From Sycon ciliatum (lineage: Eukaryota; Porifera; Calcarea; Leucosolenida; Sycettidae): a stretch of 64,000 nt of DNA. Of this stretch, positions 4,016 through 64,000 are shown piece by piece (the stretch's first letter is position 1; the number at the start of each line of letters is the position of its first letter). The position numbers and the translations under genes were made by a program. The notes under the pieces were generated by a model that was not told the origin of the DNA, ran no database searches, and saw nothing but the letters and a program-made list of their open reading frames with translations. The stretch lies in the NCBI RefSeq assembly GCF_964019385.1, contig NC_088649.1, positions 15,844,347-15,908,346 on the forward strand. Direction: 5' to 3'.

Positions 4016-4717
4016 CTAGTATCTGGTGTGACCACCATTATTTGTGATGACTTCCTGCAGACGCTTTGGCATGGATGTTGCGAAACTCGCCACATCGGCA
4101 GGCTGCAGCGCTCCCCAATCCAGATCCACGGCCTTTCGCAGCTCATTCGCAGTTTGGCAGTTGTGTGCTACCAGTCGTCGTTTCAGCAAGCTCCAAATGT
4201 TCTGGATCGGGTTTATGTCTGGTGAACGAGCAGGTTGAAACGCAATGATCGGCATGACGTTTTCGAGGATGTGCTGCTGCGCGTTAGGTGACAGAGACAC
4301 AGTGCCGAGGACGTGCACCCTCGCCGGATGCTGTGACTGCTCAGCAACAGGCACAGAATCGCGAGGAAACCAGAACATGATCCGACCGTCGGGGCCGGCA
4401 GCAAAACAAGCTTCGTCGGCGGATACTATCCGGTCGAAGGCGTGGCCTTGGTGGAAGACAACCCACGCAAGACGGTGGAGCTGGTGTGCCTCTGTGAGGA
4501 CGACTTTCCTATGCGGACGCCCAAAGCGATGGGCTTCTGATAGGCGCCGTCTCACCTGCCTAGCACCTACTGATTCGGCTGCTGGACCAACATTAGCCAA
4601 ATCGGTTGCTGCTTTCTCCCTGCTGGAATAGCGGTTGTTTTCAACAAACTGCTGGATGTGCTGAAGTTCGTCAGGGCCTAGTGTGGGCTGAGCGCCACTC
4701 CCCGCTTTCGTCTTCAC
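4016..4717 (-). pseudogene. Tc1-like transposase, internally deleted
   Basis: The 233-residue open frame is the central and C-terminal part of an IS630/Tc1-type DDE transposase, which cuts and rejoins DNA at TA sites. Near residue 100 the text SADEACF fits the first catalytic Asp block, and near residues 170-185 SPDINPIQNIWSLLKR is the typical third-block motif (D..NPIE.LW). The middle block with the second Asp (usually a DNAP or DGAP type motif) is missing: LENVMP runs straight into IIAFQPARSPDINP, consistent with an in-frame deletion of several dozen residues. The N-terminal helix-turn-helix region is also incomplete. The protein cannot be catalytically active. TIRs were not resolved. Confidence 0.8.
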
Positions 4718-5066
4718 TGTAACACCAGCCTCGACCTACTCGATAGTATTGTTTACCTGAACAATGCAACATAGAGAAATGCATATTTGAGTAAATGTCG
4801 CTCTCATTCTGCTCGTATATCCATGGCTTTGATATTTTGCATGCTTACTGGGGTTTTCTTATTGCCGGTCAAGTCGTGAATGCGCCTGCTGCTCAGCCCA
4901 GATCGGTAGAGCCACATGGCGACTCATTACCTCCACCAAACCCACTGCGAAGAAGAGAGTCCTGTTTGTTGGAAACTTGATGCATGCAATTACTGCAGAC
5001 CAGCTGAAGGAGTTCATCGCAGCAAGAGCAGGTGAGGCTGACCACAACATCCAAGTGTTTGACATA

Positions 5067-26008: not shown

Positions 26009-26493
26009 GGAACCTCACAGATGTGAGCAGCTCAGGATGTCCACCCGGTACCATTGATGAGGATGTGTGCTATAAGTAGCATAGAGGTAGTATATAGTAG
26101 TGCCGGTAGTAGACCTACAAGTACATGTCATCAGGAGAATGACCCTGCTGAAGGTCATGGGGACAGTCATGCCTGTGAATGTTCCTACTCTGTACTTCCT
26201 GAAATGATTGTATTGATTCTTTTCTTCCTCCAATTCTTTCTAGATAGAGTTTGCACCAAAGATTTTCAGTTGCAATATCCTTTCTCCTCCTCCAAAGGTC
26301 CATTCTGGTTCTTTTATCACATGCATTTAAATGCGGTTGCTATGCCTTCATAGGCTTCAACAAGTTCTGTTTGGACGGACACAACATGCTGATGCCCTTT
26401 TTCCTGACTCATGCCGAACGTCCTTCTTCCTTTTCTCGCCCTATGTCACTCTGCATGGTCACGATTACATGCATGTACATGTACATGTACAAT

Positions 26494-26522
26494 CAAGAGT
26501 ACACGGGGGTTATGTACTCTTG
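26494..26522. mobile_element. 29-bp relic of the CAAGAGT-ended MITE family
   Basis: Starts CAAGAGTACA and ends GGGGGTTATGTACTCTTG, the two termini of the elements at 31379 and 41220 with nothing between. Flanks GTACAAT (26487-26493) and ATACAAT (26523-26529) match at 6 of 7 positions. Confidence 0.6.
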
Positions 26523-26595
26523 ATACAATGTATGTACTTCCAAGTACAATCATGTACTTTTGTACATGTACCGGCATATGTATGAGTATGGGCTC

Positions 26596-31284: not shown

Positions 31285-31962
31285 GAACACAATGCCACAA
31301 GCGAGAAGGCATGTCACACTTGAGAAATTGTGGTTTCATAATAAGAGTTTCCATGACTTTTGAGATTATGCACAGCAACAAGAGTACATAACCCCCAAGA
31401 GTGTGCAACTGCCTGCACAACCACTATGCTGTGCTGCGACGGCAGAACTTCACATCACGTGACATGGTTCAAAAGGTTATGCTGGCAAACAGTGCAAAGT
31501 GACGACAAGAGAGTTGTACCCAAAGCTGGGCTGCGTACAACCCTGTATCTATCATGCACAGAGTGCAAATATTGTGTACGGGTTCATCACGTGATGTGAA
31601 GTTCTGCCGTCACAGACCCCATAGCTGGAATTGCACACTCTTGGGGGTTATATACTCTTGACAGCAAGGGTACGGGCCTGTAATTCTTAAGGCTTGAGCG
31701 GGAAGATTGCTTGTGGATATAAACCATGTTGGCCGTCTTCCACATCCTAGGTCGGACTCCAGACCGGAAGCACTGATCTCTGTCTCCAGTCTGCCTGTAC
31801 AATGTCCTTCATTACTTTTAAAATTGCTTGTCCACCCAGCTTCGCAAAATCCCTTCTGGCACTCTCTTCAAATCCCAGATATCCCTGCTGTTGCAGAACT
31901 CTGTATGCTCGTGTAGCGACCACCCTGCCCATACACGTAGTCACTAATCTCTGCTCACCCAA
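31285..31962 (-). pseudogene. LINE RT fragment split by a MITE
   Basis: Upstream of the MITE the minus strand reads GVRPRMWKTANMVYIHKQSS then SLKNYRPVPLL; beyond the MITE (31378 downward) it resumes LLCIISKVMETLIMKPQFLK. With the MITE and one 7-bp duplication removed, the motif is continuous, so insertion split a standard RT block. The rest of the LINE is missing. Confidence 0.7.
31379..31660. mobile_element. Long-TIR MITE with 7-bp target duplication, copy A
   Basis: Ends CAAGAGTACATAACCCCC and GGGGGTTATATACTCTTG are inverted for ~31 bp, and the inversion continues inward (CGGCAGAACTTCACATCACG against CGTGATGTGAAGTTCTGCCG), leaving a ~120-bp core. ACAGCAA flanks it at 31372-31378 and 31661-31667. 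It interrupts an RT gene, which validates the edges. No coding capacity. Confidence 0.85.
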
Positions 31963-40639: not shown

Positions 40640-42245
40640 AATATGTAGTAATCCTGATGCTCTGATGCATGCCGAGGCTAGCTGTGCTCAGTCTCCGGCT
40701 AGCTGTATGCTCAGGATGCTTTCTTGATCTTCTCTTCTTCTTCTTCTTCTTTTTTCCTTTCTCTTTTCTTTAAAATGTTTTACTGCCAGAAGTGGTCTTC
40801 ATATAAGGAGGCAGATATGCCTGTTTGTTGTACGACTTTAAATAAATCCAACCAACCAACCAACCAATACTCTCGCGAATAAGTTCGGATATTCGGCGAA
40901 CGTACATGCAGAAAGGCAATGGCCCGACAACAGACTCCTAGGGGACCCCTCTTGTACAGGGTTTGGTGTCACCCTTCTCACCATTGACAGTAACCTGCTG
41001 ACTGCGATTCGTGAGATAGTCTGAGAATCACTTGAGGACAGTATTGCCTACGCCAGGTGCGGCTATCTCATCCAGTAGACCTGTTGGGTGCACACGGTTG
41101 AACGCCTTGCCCATATCCGCAAAGACTTCTAGTCAAGTTCTGTCTATGCAAAGTGTCAGGGCATCCTCACAGCTATGATGTGAGAGGTACGCAAATTGTT
41201 CAGCTGCTATGGCAGATAGCAAGAGTACATAACCCCCCAGAGTGTGCAACTCCACTATGGGTGCTGTCCCGACAGAATTTCAAGTTGACGTCATTTTGAT
41301 GATGCAATGCGCACTGTACACGGATTATCAGACGAATCCGGAACCTGTGGTTGACCGAAGCCGATCGATCTTGTACAAATTATTGCAAAGAAAAACGTGT
41401 GATGCGTTGACACCCGTACACATGTTGTAAATCACTGCTGCAAGGAGCATTGCGTCATAAATAATGACGTCAACTTGAAATTCTGTCGGGACAACAGGGT
41501 ATGTGGGAGTTGCACACTCTGGGGGGTTATGTACTCTTGCAGATAGGTCTGGATTCTGGTGAAATACGAAGTGACTTGCTTGTGGACAATCTTCTCTAGG
41601 ATCTTGGCAGCGATATGTAACAGTGAGATTGGTCTGTAGATGGTGGCTGAGGTCTTATCACCACATCTGTAAACAGGGCAGACATGGGCAATTTTGTAGG
41701 CAGCAGGAAAGATGCCAGATCTAAGGGACTGGGGGACGATAAAAGTTAGGGGATACGAGACTTAATCTCTGCATTATTTCTGGATGCCGGACAGAATATC
41801 ATAGGAGCCGGTGGCTTTGCTGGATGCCAGAGATTCAAGGAACTTCGAGATGGCATCGACGCTGACAGTATCAAACTCCAAAAGGGTAGCGCCATTGGGG
41901 TCTGCAAGAGGCAGGGGCACCTCGACTGGTCTGGCAGGGTCATGGACGATCTCGGCAAAGGCACTAGTAGTCGTCAGATCAGCGAGTGTGGCTGCTGGTG
42001 CAGCCCTCACTGCTGTTCTACCAGACTAGCTATTGATACTGGCCCATTAGCCTCGTGGGTCATGGCGACGATTTTCGAACTCTCTGATGTAATACTGTGA
42101 CTTCAGCTGCCTATTGAGGAGAGGGCCTTCTCGCCGTATTGCACGATACATCTGCCGAAGCTGTTGATCTAACGGGTGAGTGCGTACCTTTCTATGTATC
42201 TTGATTCGTTGCTGGAGGAGGTGTTTCAACCGAGGTGTCTAGCCA
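40640..42245 (-). pseudogene. L2-like LINE RT, interrupted by a MITE
   Basis: Reading down the minus strand: LKSQYYIREFENRRHDPRG (linker), EFDTVSVDAISKFLESLASS and KATGSYDILSG, then YRPISLLHIAAKILEKIVHK, the MITE at 41220-41539, then AAEQFAYLSHHSCEDAL, MGKAFNRVHPTGLLDE and TRGVP before the next MITE. Same LINE as 39365-40270. Stops and frameshifts throughout. Confidence 0.75.
41220..41539. mobile_element. Long-TIR MITE with 7-bp target duplication, copy B
   Basis: Same terminal ~30 bp as 31379-31660 (CAAGAGTACATAACCCCC), but the inner arm differs: GACAGAATTTCAAGTTGACG against CGTCAACTTGAAATTCTGTC. CAGATAG flanks it at 41213-41219 and 41540-41546. It sits in an RT gene. No coding capacity. 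Confidence 0.85.
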
Positions 42246-48640: not shown

Positions 48641-48751
48641 TATTGTGTTACTCCTTGGTGGGCACTGTTACGTACATTTCCAATGGGGTCGAGCATGCGT
48701 CTGCAGTACAGTACGGCATCACAGAGTCATCTGGTCATACGAGGATACAAT

Positions 48752-48770
48752 CAAGAGTCCATAACTCTTG
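48752..48770. mobile_element. 19-bp relic of the CAAGAGT-ended MITE family
   Basis: CAAGAGTCCATAACTCTTG flanked by ATACAAT on both sides (48745-48751, 48771-48777). The 7-bp duplication is perfect and has the length seen at the full-size copies. Confidence 0.6.
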
Positions 48771-48866
48771 ATACAATCAATCACGTCCCTGACAAGAAGT
48801 CAGGGAGGGGCGCGGATGGGAGAGATGGGGCGCTCTGGCGCTCTGGCGGGATTTTACGGTATAATA

Positions 48867-58820: not shown

Positions 58821-60386
58821 TTAAGGTGGCTCGCGCCTATTTCTAAACTCGTCTTCTGCGCAGGTTCTCGCGCATCCTACGTTCGAGAAAAGTGCATGCG
58901 GAGTTGGCGTAGCGAGCTTGTAGCGCACTCCAGTTTCGAAGGGTCCAGCTCGAGCAGATGGCCTGAGTACGAAACTCTCGTACTCGAGTCTAGAGAGTGA
59001 GCTTTTTTCTTCTTTTTTTCACTCCTTCACTTGGCTACTTTTTTTTAGGTGCATTTTTTACTTGTGGAAATTGTCACCTGTCAGAGAAGTGTTGGGATGT
59101 CCCTTCCAGCAGGCACTGCCCATGCCCATGGTCGGCTTCGGAAAAAGAGTAGAATAAAAGCGTTGGAGTCTATGTGGATGTCTTGGAAGGAATGGGGGAC
59201 GGCACAGACGGGTACGTGAATGTGTAAAACCTGAGTATTTTGTATTTTTGTTGAATTGGTTCAAGTGACTTGGCGAGTCCCTTCCACAGTAGAACGCCAT
59301 TCTTCGCAAAATTTGTCTGACTATTTTGTCAAGAATGGCCGTTCTATAATGATCAATCGACTCTGAAGCCAGTGAATTGTGGAGGTCGCGCTTGAATATA
59401 AATTGAAATGGTCACGAATGTACGAAAGTATTTTTGATTCGAACATGTACTGGACAACGTGGTTGCATTGTGTCAGTAGAGGGTACTACTGCAGTATCTC
59501 ACCATTTCTTTATGGTAATCGCTGTCCACCAAGAACTCTACTATAGTTATTGCCACGGCTTGATCACAGCGGTACACTGAATTTTTGTTGAGAAATTCCT
59601 TCAATTTATTGTCTTATCACTCTGACTAGACTCAGTGCTTGAGCGTTTTATTTAGGATGCATTTTTTAGAGATTGATATTTACCAGTATGTGTTTCACAT
59701 CACTCCTGACGAGAATAAGCATTTGAAAGCAACACTGGCTGACAGCAATCATGCTCCCCAGGCTCAAGTGTGTGTGTGTTACAAGGGTGTGCATGGCAAT
59801 TTGGTAGAGTATGTGTGAACACAAAGTCCACTATTATATTCACAAACTCAAGTACATCGCAAAATTGTGCCTTTGTATCGTATATTGTGCCTTCATAACT
59901 TTGACTAGCCCTAACCTGCTGTCTGACAGGTGTGTCATTGGTGAATGTACATGTACACTGTCTCCCTTCACAACTACGTGCATGTAACACAATATTTACA
60001 GTGCACTTGCAGTGTATATAGCTAGATCAATGCACAGTAATCAGTAAATTGTGGCTGCCTCTGTCACATTGTCATATTCACGCGACGTACATTCTAAATC
60101 ATCGAAAATGCACAAACCTATTTCTACGTGTGCAGAAGAAGATTGAACACATTCTTTCCTTGCATCTGCGCCTTGATCCTTGAAGGATGATGGCGTTCCT
60201 ACGAATGCGGAAAACTCGGCCTCTAGCCGAGTCTGACGCGAACCGTGAATTTTTTTCCTTGACATTGGTTGATGGCATCAGTCACATCTAAGAGTGACAC
60301 TCTATCTCAAACATATTTACGCAAAGAAGTAGTAATCTTATCTTCATTGGAGCGATGGTCTGCAGGCGTGCGATCATGTGTGTGCC

Positions 60387-60388
<2 letters not shown>

Positions 60389-60422
<34 letters not shown>

Positions 60423-61009
60423 AGTCACTGTTTACACGCACGTTTGTGCGTGTGTGGTTGTGTGTGTGTGTCTGTCTGTCTGGCCTGGTATGAGGTTGCT
60501 CAGGATAGGTCTGCCTGGCGGGTGGCCTGTCTTATCTGCCATCGGTCATTTCGCCAGCCAGGTGACAAACAAGGCACAAATGTGGCGCAGAGCAAAGTCT
60601 CCCCATCCAGGATCAGCGTGGTGCTGTGCAGTGTGGTACATGCAGAAGGTGGTTTCACTCTCGTGGTGGCCTGCGTGTGCATCATTGTTTGCCCCTGGAA
60701 CCATCGAAAGTGTCCGCGCTGGCATCATCTATTCCGCTCAGCGTCCATGCTTCTCTCTTGTGTTTGACATGCAATCAGCAATTCAAGTCAGTGCCTGGTT
60801 TCAGACGTCACATGTGCGACCGTGGCCATCGGGCAACCAAGTCTGACAGAGCGTCATATTGTGTTCGCTGTTCTCGCTGCAGCCGTCAGTTCCGTCGACA
60901 GAGTGACCTGAGTCGTCATCTCCGTTTCTGCTCCTGACAATGACTCCGGCTTCTTTCGGAATGGTGTGGCCCTTGGGCAACCATGCTACAGTAGCAGTAG
61001 TAGTAGTAG

Positions 61010-61048
<39 letters not shown>

Positions 61049-61228
61049 CTGCCTCGCCTAATAGCTATCATCGCCTTTGACGATGGGCTTTCCAAAGGTC
61101 CAAAGATGTGTGTGTGTGCGTGTGCGTGTGTGTGTCTGGAGCGCCACCGGGTGGCGTGCTCTTTCTCTCTCTCTCTCTGCTGCCCCTCCGGGGCCCACGT
61201 GACCCTAGTGGTAGTGGCTCGACAGGAC

Positions 61229-61270
<42 letters not shown>

Positions 61271-61320
61271 ATGTATGCGTGTGTGTGTGTTTGCATGTAT
61301 GCGTGTGTGTGTGTGTTTGT
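60389..61320. repeat. GT microsatellites
   Basis: (GT)n arrays at about 60389-60421, 61013-61046 and 61231-61266 with further TGTG-rich stretches. An (AGT)n tract at 60992-61013 precedes the second. Confidence 0.9.
60505..60937 (+). pseudogene. C2H2-like zinc-finger fragment, probably LINE-derived
   Basis: Frame one reads CLICHRSFRQPGD (incomplete finger); after a frame change near 60620 the 60626 frame gives CGTCRRWFHSRGGLRVHHC, CLTCNQQFKSVPGFRRHMC and CSRCSRQFRRQSDLSRHLRF ending in a stop. RxPGD and GGLRxHxC fingers of this spacing occur in LINE polyproteins, and repeats follow the stop as in a LINE 3' end. A host zinc-finger gene is less likely because of the frame break and short length. 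Confidence 0.5.
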
Positions 61321-61811
61321 GTGTGGTATGTGTGTGTACACTTGTGTCAATGTGTATTGCAGGGTTGGGTGGGCTAGTAGAGAAGGGTAGATGTATATGG
61401 ACATGTACATGGGATATGTAGGTGTGCATGTACATGCACCAAAGCAAACTTATCAAAATGGCATTCTGCGCCTATATGGCGAAATTGAGCATTGAAGCAT
61501 ATGTTTTTTATTTTCTCATTGGCATGTACACAGTTAGTCCATTCAATAACCAAAAAATGAGGAAGATTGTAAATCAGGTTCTTGATGAAATACCCATCCG
61601 CTATACATCATAAATCCTGTACAAATTTGACAATTTAGTGAAATTGTCATCGCCTATATCTCAAAAGTTAGCATTGAGACCCCGTTTTTTTAACTCGCCA
61701 TTTGCATACACTACCTAAGAGCAACCGCCCACCAAATTTTCAGAGCAATCGTTAATTTTTTTGAAATAGGCGTGAGCCACCTTAATCAAGAGTACATAAA
61801 CCAGAGTGTGT

Positions 61812-62300
61812 ATTTAGAAAAGCGATCCTGTCAGCTTTTCTATTATTGTGTTCACATGGCGCTACCTAACGACACCGCTATTCAGACACGTTGTCTACGT
61901 AGCTACGTAAGTTTCTACGTAAGATGCTCGGTACCTGGTCCTGGACCAGGGAGCTACTCCATCATGGCTCCTACCATCGCGCGGCCGGCTGGCCGCATGC
62001 GTGTGTATTGGAGACTTTTTGTTGTTGCCTTTTCGGATGTGCATGCACGAGGAACTTCCTTCTTTGGAACTGCTTCTTGCATGAGCTGTTTCGGATATTT
62101 CGTCGCCTGGCCTGGCTTATTTCGTTTCGGCGCTGCTGAGACCTCCTTTCGCGGAATATTACTCAATGACAGGTGAGTTGACCAGTTCCCTTTGATTCAT
62201 TTGCTTGTGTTGACTCTTTCATCTACGAAAAGTGTGCTGATTTTGGGCGGAATCAGCGGCAATAAAAAATGGAAAAGCTGACAGGATCTCCTTTCTAAAT
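61812..62300. mobile_element. TIR element, TTTAGAAA ends, copy 1
   Basis: ATTTAGAAAAGCGATCCTGT and CAGCTTTTC at the left pair with GAAAAGCTGACAGGATCTCC and TTTCTAAAT at the right. A second copy starts at 63936. TSD unclear. A degenerate CAAGAGTACATAAACC end lies just left at 61787. Confidence 0.6.
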
Positions 62301-62441: not shown

Positions 62442-62958
62442 ATCCATTTTTATCTCTTTGCCCTTGCCTACAGTGTGCGAAGAACGCGAGTTCACCTTCT
62501 TGACGGTAAGGCTTATGTTAGATGTGTTGTCGAATTACTCATATTCATTGTACATTGGTACGTTACAAGTAAGGCACTGGTCAGTGGCATACTATCGTTG
62601 GCAGTTCCCAATCTGGAGGGAAAGGTTCAAGGACTCATTGACCGAGTTGGCCAAATAAATTCGCATACCAGGGAAAATCTCCATTGTGGAGAGGTTCAGT
62701 AATTTGTTTGCTTCATACGAAACAAGCCAATGGGTGCAGTCTCGTCTCGTGAAAATCTCGTACGTGTATGTATGTTTGGATTTGTTTACTTGAGTCTGGG
62801 CTGTTTGATTTGTGAGTACCGCCGAGATTGCACTGCCCGAAAGCAAGAATTACGATCTGCAATCTGTTTGTAGTACCAGCAAGAATGTGCAGTACATGTA
62901 TCGTACTTTCTCTGTTGCTGTTTCAGTTGCCGTCATGTGGCTAAAGAAAGGTTCAGTA

Positions 62959-63236
62959 GAGAGGTTCTGCAAAACGAAAATTCGAACGAAGTTTCGCGAC
63001 AGTCCTTGCGAAAGTGTGTACGAATTTTTGCACGAACTTTGCGTTCTGCACATTTTCGTAGTTTGCGCGGGCCAAGTGCACGTACGCCATGACCCGATCT
63101 CAGGAAATTTCCTACGACAGTTCATTTCGCGTTCCCCGCAAGTTTCGCGTCCAAAGTTGCGAAAGTTCGTGCGAAGTTTCGCACTTCATGATGTAGAGCG
63201 AAGGTTCGTACGCATTTTCGTTTTGCAGAACCTCTC
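62959..63236. mobile_element. TA-flanked MITE, GGTTCTGC ends, copy 3
   Basis: GAGAGGTTCTGCAAAACGAA at the left and TTCGTTTTGCAGAACCTCTC at the right; TA at 62957-62958 and 63237-63238. The inner part repeats CGAACGAAGTTTCGCG-like motifs in both orientations. 278 bp, non-coding. Confidence 0.85.
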
Positions 63237-63935
63237 TAGTGACTCGTTTGTTTCATACGAGACGAGTCAATGAGTCGGTGTGGCTTAGAATCTTTCGCTG
63301 TAGAAGAAATCTATTCGTATGTCTATTGGAGAAATAATTGTATTCACTGGTTATAAAAAAAGTTAAGACAAACTCACAGAATAGATACCATCGGTCCCTT
63401 GGTGTTCGTCCTAAAGAGGTTCGACTGGATATCATTCATACTCACCAAAAGATGTGTAAGATTTTATTATCATGGAGTGCCTTGTTTATCTCTCAGTATC
63501 AGTACCTCGAACCATAGCCTTGCCCCTTTTCTCCTCAGGATCAGTGTAGTTGTTGGAACGAGGTTTTGGACTCAGCAAGGATTCGTTTACATTTTAATAC
63601 ATGTTTATTATTCCTCCTTTGCTGTGTTGTTTTAGAAAATCGTGGACTAACAGTTTGAAGTCATTGAACTACTTCCAAAAGTTGTATCGGCATCAACAGG
63701 ATTACCATTTCAGTGCAAAATGATGCTGGATGACCTTATCACGATAACCCATGATTTTAAACCATTATGAACACAGAATCAACAAAAACATCTGTGACAC
63801 GCACCTGGCTACATTTCTCAAAGAGTCATGAAATTCTGCAACAGCAAGTTGCAACATGCACAGAATGACCTCCGTATAAAAAAAAGTGTCACCACAACCA
63901 GACCACGACTCACATGTTTCCCCGCCGAAGAACAT
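63237..63935. other. No gene recognised
   Basis: AT-rich DNA with short ORFs only. Confidence 0.4.
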
Positions 63936-64000
63936 TTAGAAAAGCGATCCTGTCAGCTTTTCTATTATTGTGTTCACATGGCAAGAAAAACGACACCGCT
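63936..64000 (+). mobile_element. TIR element, TTTAGAAA ends, copy 2 (cut by window end)
   Basis: ATTTAGAAAAGCGATCCTGT...TGTGTTCACATGGC is identical to 61812-61861, then differs slightly before CGACACCGCT. The remainder lies beyond the window. Confidence 0.65.

Follow-up and report, generated by a model that had tools for sequence, protein, structure and literature searches.

The stretch of Sycon ciliatum DNA analysed here (the window; 64,000 nucleotides of contig NC_088649.1) contains large open reading frames (ORFs) between positions 4019 and 63273, most of which encode the endonuclease and reverse transcriptase (RT) of non-LTR retrotransposons. Two MITE copies, A and B, both sit in RT pseudogenes on the minus strand (Table 1). 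As proposed in a preliminary description of this DNA, the RT reading resumes across A, with the joined flanks being continuous in a single frame (NYRPVPLLCIISKVMETL). When compared with another RT from the window, these joined flanks gave an E-value of 1.7e-5, as against 0.002 for the right flank alone (both against a set of four proteins), while the Pfam RVT_1 search did not report the RT piece at A. RT matches are also present on either side of B, where the frame shifts at the junction or close to it. Comparison of an RT protein of the window with viral contigs gave no match.

Table 1. Members of the MITE family and related tip sequences in the window (TIR, tip; positions refer to the window).
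Feature	Position	Strand	Description
MITE copy A (subfamily A)	31379..31660	.	282 bp
A left tip (TIR)	31379..31408	+	30 nt, 97% complementary to 31631-31660
A right tip (TIR)	31631..31660	-	pairs with A left tip
A subterminal inverted repeat, left	31434..31462	+	29 nt, 97% complementary to 31587-31615
A subterminal inverted repeat, right	31587..31615	-	pairs with 31434..31462
A target duplication ACAGCAA, left copy	31372..31378	.	7/7
A target duplication ACAGCAA, right copy	31661..31667	.	7/7
MITE copy B (subfamily B)	41220..41539	.	320 bp
B left tip (TIR)	41220..41253	+	100% complementary to B right tip, 34-35 nt
B right tip (TIR)	41506..41539	-	pairs with B left tip
B subterminal inverted repeat, left	41262..41295	+	34 nt, 97% complementary to 41463-41496
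B subterminal inverted repeat, right	41463..41496	-	pairs with 41262..41295
B target duplication CAGATAG, left copy	41213..41219	.	7/7
B target duplication CAGATAG, right copy	41540..41546	.	7/7
Tip-like end C, single	61787..61810	+	3-nt gap relative to B tip
Candidate footprint D	26494..26522	.	29 bp: 10 nt from one tip and 17-18 nt from the other, separated by 1-2 nt filler
D flank GTACAAT, left	26487..26493		6/7
D flank ATACAAT, right	26523..26529		6/7
Candidate footprint E	48752..48770	.	19 bp: ~14 nt from one tip, with 1 mismatch, and 7 nt from the other
E flank ATACAAT, left	48745..48751		7/7
E flank ATACAAT, right	48771..48777		7/7

The coordinates and structure of A and B agree with the preliminary description, both being MITEs with near-perfect inverted tips of about 30-35 bp. 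Each is bordered by an exact 7-bp duplication, with registers of 6, 8 or 9 bp failing to fit. A scan for any inverted 7-mer (span 14-400 bp) enclosed by a perfect 7-bp flank repeat returned three sites in the whole window, all of them with this tip; the same scan of 20 block-shuffled windows gave eight matches summed over all 20. Both copies are predicted to fold into strong hairpins (z = -10.5 for A and -16.5 for B). Their inner arms had been regarded as unrelated, which does not hold for this pair: 64 bp of the arms align with 84% identity, and scores as high as those of the three arm pairings arose in 0, 2 and 10 of 1000 shuffles. The one unrelated part is the centre, the score of the central core being equalled in 539 of 1000 shuffles. 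The arm alignment thus rules out that the tips alone are conserved between A and B, a notion that is partly restored by a third subfamily, T, described below. GGCA core sites were confined to A and played no part in the analysis.

The right-hand part of the window contains several other elements. The region 58821-61785 carries GGTGGCTCRCGCCTATTTC ends, located at 58825 and 61781 and each bordered by TTAA on its outer side, which suggests a TTAA-type transposon of about 2.96 kb. Tip-like end C, for which no partner was found within the window, starts one base past the right TTAA of this element. The start of another inverted-repeat element (61812-62300), with arms of 36 nt (89%), lies within end C, and the end of this element recurs at 63934-64000, where the further copy is cut off by the edge of the window. 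In addition, an inverted repeat pair at 62953-63242 (45 nt, 89%), with the ends GAGAGGTTC and TA outside both, looks like a Tc1/mariner-type MITE.

The family is abundant in the host genome (538,412,230 bases, or 538 Mb, in 313 contigs). Tips of the family are of the form CAAGAGTACATAAC. An exact search for the 18-bp tip identified 4816 copies (2578 + 2238), compared to none for the backwards control; neither viral contigs nor a further contig set contained a match to the tip. Among 100 listed places, there were 30 head-to-head tip pairs less than 330 bp apart, all of which were fetched. A 7-bp duplication flanks 25 of these 30 pairs perfectly and another three with a 6/7 match, and it is absent from two (L010 and L021). 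An 8-bp duplication as the rule, which the preliminary description had named as the mark of an ordinary hAT-like family, fits none of the 30 pairs, and neither does a 6-bp one. L010 has no duplication at the listed pair, but a 6/7 one with an outer tip. L021 contains a 42-bp tip-to-tip palindrome (381-422) whose flanks are inverted rather than direct repeats. Of the remaining 40 listed tips, ten belong to one tandem array.

The lengths of the copies are similarly consistent, with 26 of the 30 listed pairs measuring 280-329 bp (duplication perfect in 23, 6/7 in three) and the full-length listed copies clustering at 280-293 and 320-329 bp; a few other copies outside these clusters range from 205 to 426 bp. 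Ten 10-kb stretches around some of these remaining listed tips, together with L001, contained nine further pairs of MITE length with mutated tips (205-426 bp). Seven of these have a duplication matching at 6/7 or 7/7, and two, L042 (269 bp) and L043 (268 bp), are without a matching one. When the 28 duplications of the 30 listed pairs (all except L010 and L021) were pooled from both strands, which makes the motif symmetric by construction, their consensus was the palindrome GTANTAC, with frequencies of 0.82 for T2/A6 and 0.45 for the outer G/C. The T2/A6 bias is also seen in 6 of 8 half sites at the four window sites, where it had been picked up, post hoc, before the genome copies were pooled. 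Short and uniform in length, with inverted tips, target duplications and a high copy number, the genome copies bear out the proposed long-tip MITE family with 7-bp duplications.

Sorting of the 26 full-length listed copies together with A and B yielded three subfamilies: A, with three copies of 282-285 bp; B, with nine copies of 320-329 bp; and T, with 16 copies of 280-293 bp. Mean identity inside each subfamily is 0.96-0.97, so the family was probably amplified fairly recently; copy B itself is 91-99.7% identical to the eight fetched genome copies of its subfamily. Subfamilies A and B have their arms in common, whereas T and the other two have only 31-38 bp of the tip in common, and T possesses a subterminal inverted repeat of its own. 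Four arm comparisons of T with A or B gave scores that were reached by 1 of 1000 shuffles in one case and by 87 to 240 in the others, so that a remote relation between T and A is possible on these alignments, and the earlier view of unrelated inner arms stands, as far as tested, for T versus A and B. A common tip with different insides is thus real at the level of the genome, and its simplest reading is that one enzyme serves all three subfamilies. Since all three consensuses keep a subterminal inverted repeat, the idea that the tips alone are recognised is left unsupported, and this repeat may be needed for recognition in addition to the tip. A separate T-related structure is found at L049 (G000:C1:5683700-5684900), where about a dozen near-identical tandem units of ~44 bp, made up of a T-type left end and flank-like bases, run into the start of a T-type element and are preceded by A-like sequence. 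The composition of its units, a T-type left end with a few flank-like bases, rules out this 44-bp tip array (C1:5684016-5684614) as a series of scars.

A search of the window for the 7-nt end of the tip revealed two much shorter sites, D and E, that were absent from the preliminary description. In E, the two tip remnants overlap in a 2-nt microhomology (AC). A flank match of 6/7 or better at the spacing of D occurs at 0.5% of window positions, and the left flank of D overlaps a (CATGTA)3.3 tandem repeat (26472-26491). Altogether, four sites in the window (A, B, D and E) combine the tip with 7-bp flanks matching in at least six positions, compared to none for flanks of 6, 8 or 9 bp and one for flanks of 5 bp. 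At least one such site was obtained with 21 of 200 permuted tips, one of which gave four, making this control less clean than the 400-tip control of the larger scan that follows.

This larger scan covered L009-L048 and the window (194,130 bp after removal of overlaps, chosen around tips and thus non-random; L001-L008 left out) and considered sites of 12-60 bp that are bounded on both sides by a 7-nt tip (one mismatch tolerated) and have 7-bp flanks matching in at least six positions. Ten sites were found, six with 7/7 and four with 6/7 flanks, whereas 400 permuted tips averaged 0.06 sites, with no more than 4 for any one of them. Flanks of 5, 8 or 9 bp gave none and flanks of 6 bp a single unrelated stretch. 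The ten sites are 19-49 bp long between the duplications; less clean among them are L010, which is composite, L046, which contains a run of 19 C, and a 39-bp site in L045 with a non-consensus middle. The tip repeat itself continues to 31-34 nt, beyond the part kept at these sites: with one mismatch allowed, the kept tip measures at most 19 nt at all 20 ends, with 18 or 19 nt recurring as the limit. Based on this anatomy, we infer that the short tip-to-tip copies are excision footprints. They agree, as far as their sequences tell, with an excision by a long staggered cut that leaves up to about 17 nt of each tip.

Alternatively, D, E and the other short copies could be internal deletions of long-palindrome MITEs generated by replication slippage. 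Hairpins are prone to deletion, and the strong predicted folding of A and B fits this idea, as do longer copies that are shortened but retain the tip in full. Two such copies were among four more matches at 61-260 bp: L031 (100 bp) resembles a T element with an internal deletion, and L040 (205 bp) may be a deletion or another subfamily. The other two, L025 and L045, are tandem composites in which duplication, scar, duplication, scar and duplication follow one another. We consider slippage an unlikely source of the short copies, because it does not explain why the kept tip should stop at 18-19 nt inside a repeat of 31-34 nt and leaves these tandem sites unaccounted for.

A similar arrangement of whole elements is found at L041. 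Here, a scan with looser tips returned spans of 426 bp and 733 bp, which the coordinates resolve into two copies standing back to back (4131-4863 overall), one of 426 bp (4131-4556) and the other of 300 bp (4564-4863). The 7-bp repeat stands before, between and after them, as if a second insertion had occurred at a used target. Judging from their layout, the arrays at L025, L045 and L041 suggest repeated use of a single target. A search of L001-L008, L039-L048 and the window (14-nt tips, at most three mismatches) listed no tips that were separated by over 400 bp and had matching flanks of 7 bp, and the genome stretches examined showed no copy of coding length with these tips.

The preliminary description had placed 7-bp duplications outside the usual superfamilies, a claim that is contradicted by two Drosophila elements of the P superfamily, Galileo and 1360, the latter also called hoppel. 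Several P-superfamily features, namely a duplication of 7 or 8 bp, a palindromic target of the GT...AC type and tips of about 31 bp accompanied by subterminal inverted repeats, are indeed present in the sponge family. For 1360, 7-bp duplications are reported for 274 of 279 insertions, with the motif GTTNAAC/KTNBWAB (PMC3276498), and Galileo mostly generates 7-bp duplications at the target GTATTAC (PMC4168063), with many of its copies consisting only of tips and a spacer (PMC4168063, PMC3573991). Like GTANTAC, both published motifs have T2/A6. However, the target core of 1360 is GTTNAAC instead of GTANTAC, and the inverted repeats described for Galileo are much longer and internally repetitive, unlike the 31-34 bp tips with a separate subterminal repeat observed here. 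The Drosophila P element resembles the family in its architecture, with tips of ~31 bp and subterminal repeats (PMC7776569), and in its tip-retaining footprints, to which the short copies would correspond. Donor sites cut by its transposase carry 17-nt 3' tails (PMC2895639, Tables 1-3), a staggered cut considered unusual for cut-and-paste transposons (PMC7776569), and the reported junctions retain up to 17 nt per tip, joined through microhomology or filler and enclosed by two 8-bp duplications (PMC2895639). The 8-bp duplication and the 17-nt tails, set against 7 bp and a limit of 18-19 nt here, distinguish the two systems. MITE families with common ends and unrelated centres have a counterpart in the P-MITEs of Anopheles gambiae, which combine P-element ends with unrelated central regions (PMC1562414) but, as described there, have 8-bp duplications and known autonomous relatives.

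On this basis, A and B are most probably P-superfamily MITEs of the 7-bp (1360/Galileo-like) kind that are moved in trans, and D and E their excision footprints. In this scenario, a cut-and-paste transposase of the P superfamily would insert the elements into GTANTAC-like palindromes, with a stagger of 7 bp as read from the duplications. On excision, it would cut one strand at the outer end of the element and the other about 18-19 nt inside the tip, leaving donor ends with single-stranded tip tails. Joining of these tails via microhomology or filler would then produce the tip-to-tip footprints of 19-49 bp between two duplications. In our assessment, the anatomy of the footprints with its 18-19 nt limit speaks most strongly for a P-type enzyme, while the 7-bp length and the target motif point to the 1360/Galileo side of the superfamily. 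The outermost 14 nt of the tip match the Drosophila P tip at 10 positions, which is only a hint. We presume that, with a gap allowed, hAT tips of the CAGAG type would fit the family tip about as well. A P-type transposase would be marked by a THAP domain and an RNase H domain with a GTP-binding insert. Neither a P nor a THAP domain was detected among the scanned ORFs of the window, a partial set consisting of ten ORFs, 101 others of at least 100 aa that do not overlap the large RT ORFs, and eight near C (four of them included in the preceding sets). These ORFs yielded RT and endonuclease, one DDE_3 domain, one Tc3-type HTH, C2H2 zinc fingers and weak matches to unrelated families. Several points count against an assignment to the P superfamily: the P elements of Drosophila (PMC3276498), Anopheles (PMC1562414) and zebrafish make 8-bp rather than 7-bp duplications, the tip match is weak, the kept tip measures 18-19 nt and not exactly 17, and some pairs are without a duplication.

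These points lead to the question of whether a separate transposase lineage might combine a long staggered cut with a 7-bp duplication. The one known tip compared, that of Drosophila P, has four mismatches in the first 11 positions and thus falls outside the rule used by Repbase for tip likeness, which asks for the same duplication length and at most one mismatch in 11 (PMC4455052). Nevertheless, the family agrees with the P superfamily in target motif, length of the duplication, architecture and type of footprint, making an independent lineage improbable. Mobilisation by hAT enzymes that make an atypical duplication of 7 bp appears still less likely. hAT tips also start with CA, but hAT enzymes cut at the tip and form a hairpin on the flank, so that their footprints should keep no long tip remnant, whereas up to 19 nt are kept in the short copies here. 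While the example query of the Repbase paper does concern hAT families annotated with 7-bp duplications (PMC4455052), the hAT element hobo generated 8 bp in 1196 of 1198 cases (PMC3276498), a length that, as noted above, fits none of the listed pairs. A Dada-type transposon would account for the duplication length, given as 6-7 bp (PMC3706591), but is very improbable: the families described there target small RNA genes, those of U6 and U1 being without terminal inverted repeats (PMC3706591), whereas the present family has long tips, A and B lie in RT pseudogenes, and Rfam gave no RNA family at gathering score within the window. Finally, IS3EU (6-bp duplication, TA ends) and IS481EU (about 4, 15 or 25 bp, TG ends) are ruled out by their published characteristics.

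Returning to a P-superfamily enzyme, it is tempting to go one step further and speculate that a transposase with an 18-19 nt staggered cut, as compared to 17 nt in Drosophila, repeatedly returns to the same GTANTAC sites and thereby creates tandem arrays of duplications and scars, or of whole elements. We regard this more specific proposal as tentative and rather doubtful. If true, the genome of a non-model animal would hold thousands of readable scars that record both the geometry of the cut and its repair by end joining. The 17-nt cut has been presented as peculiar to P elements (PMC7776569), and the junction tables cited above come from Drosophila. With its thousands of tips and many putative natural scars, the family may make the position of the cut and the habits of repair readable from the genome of another eukaryote. 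It also raises the question of whether the long stagger is a superfamily-wide property that includes the 7-bp branch.
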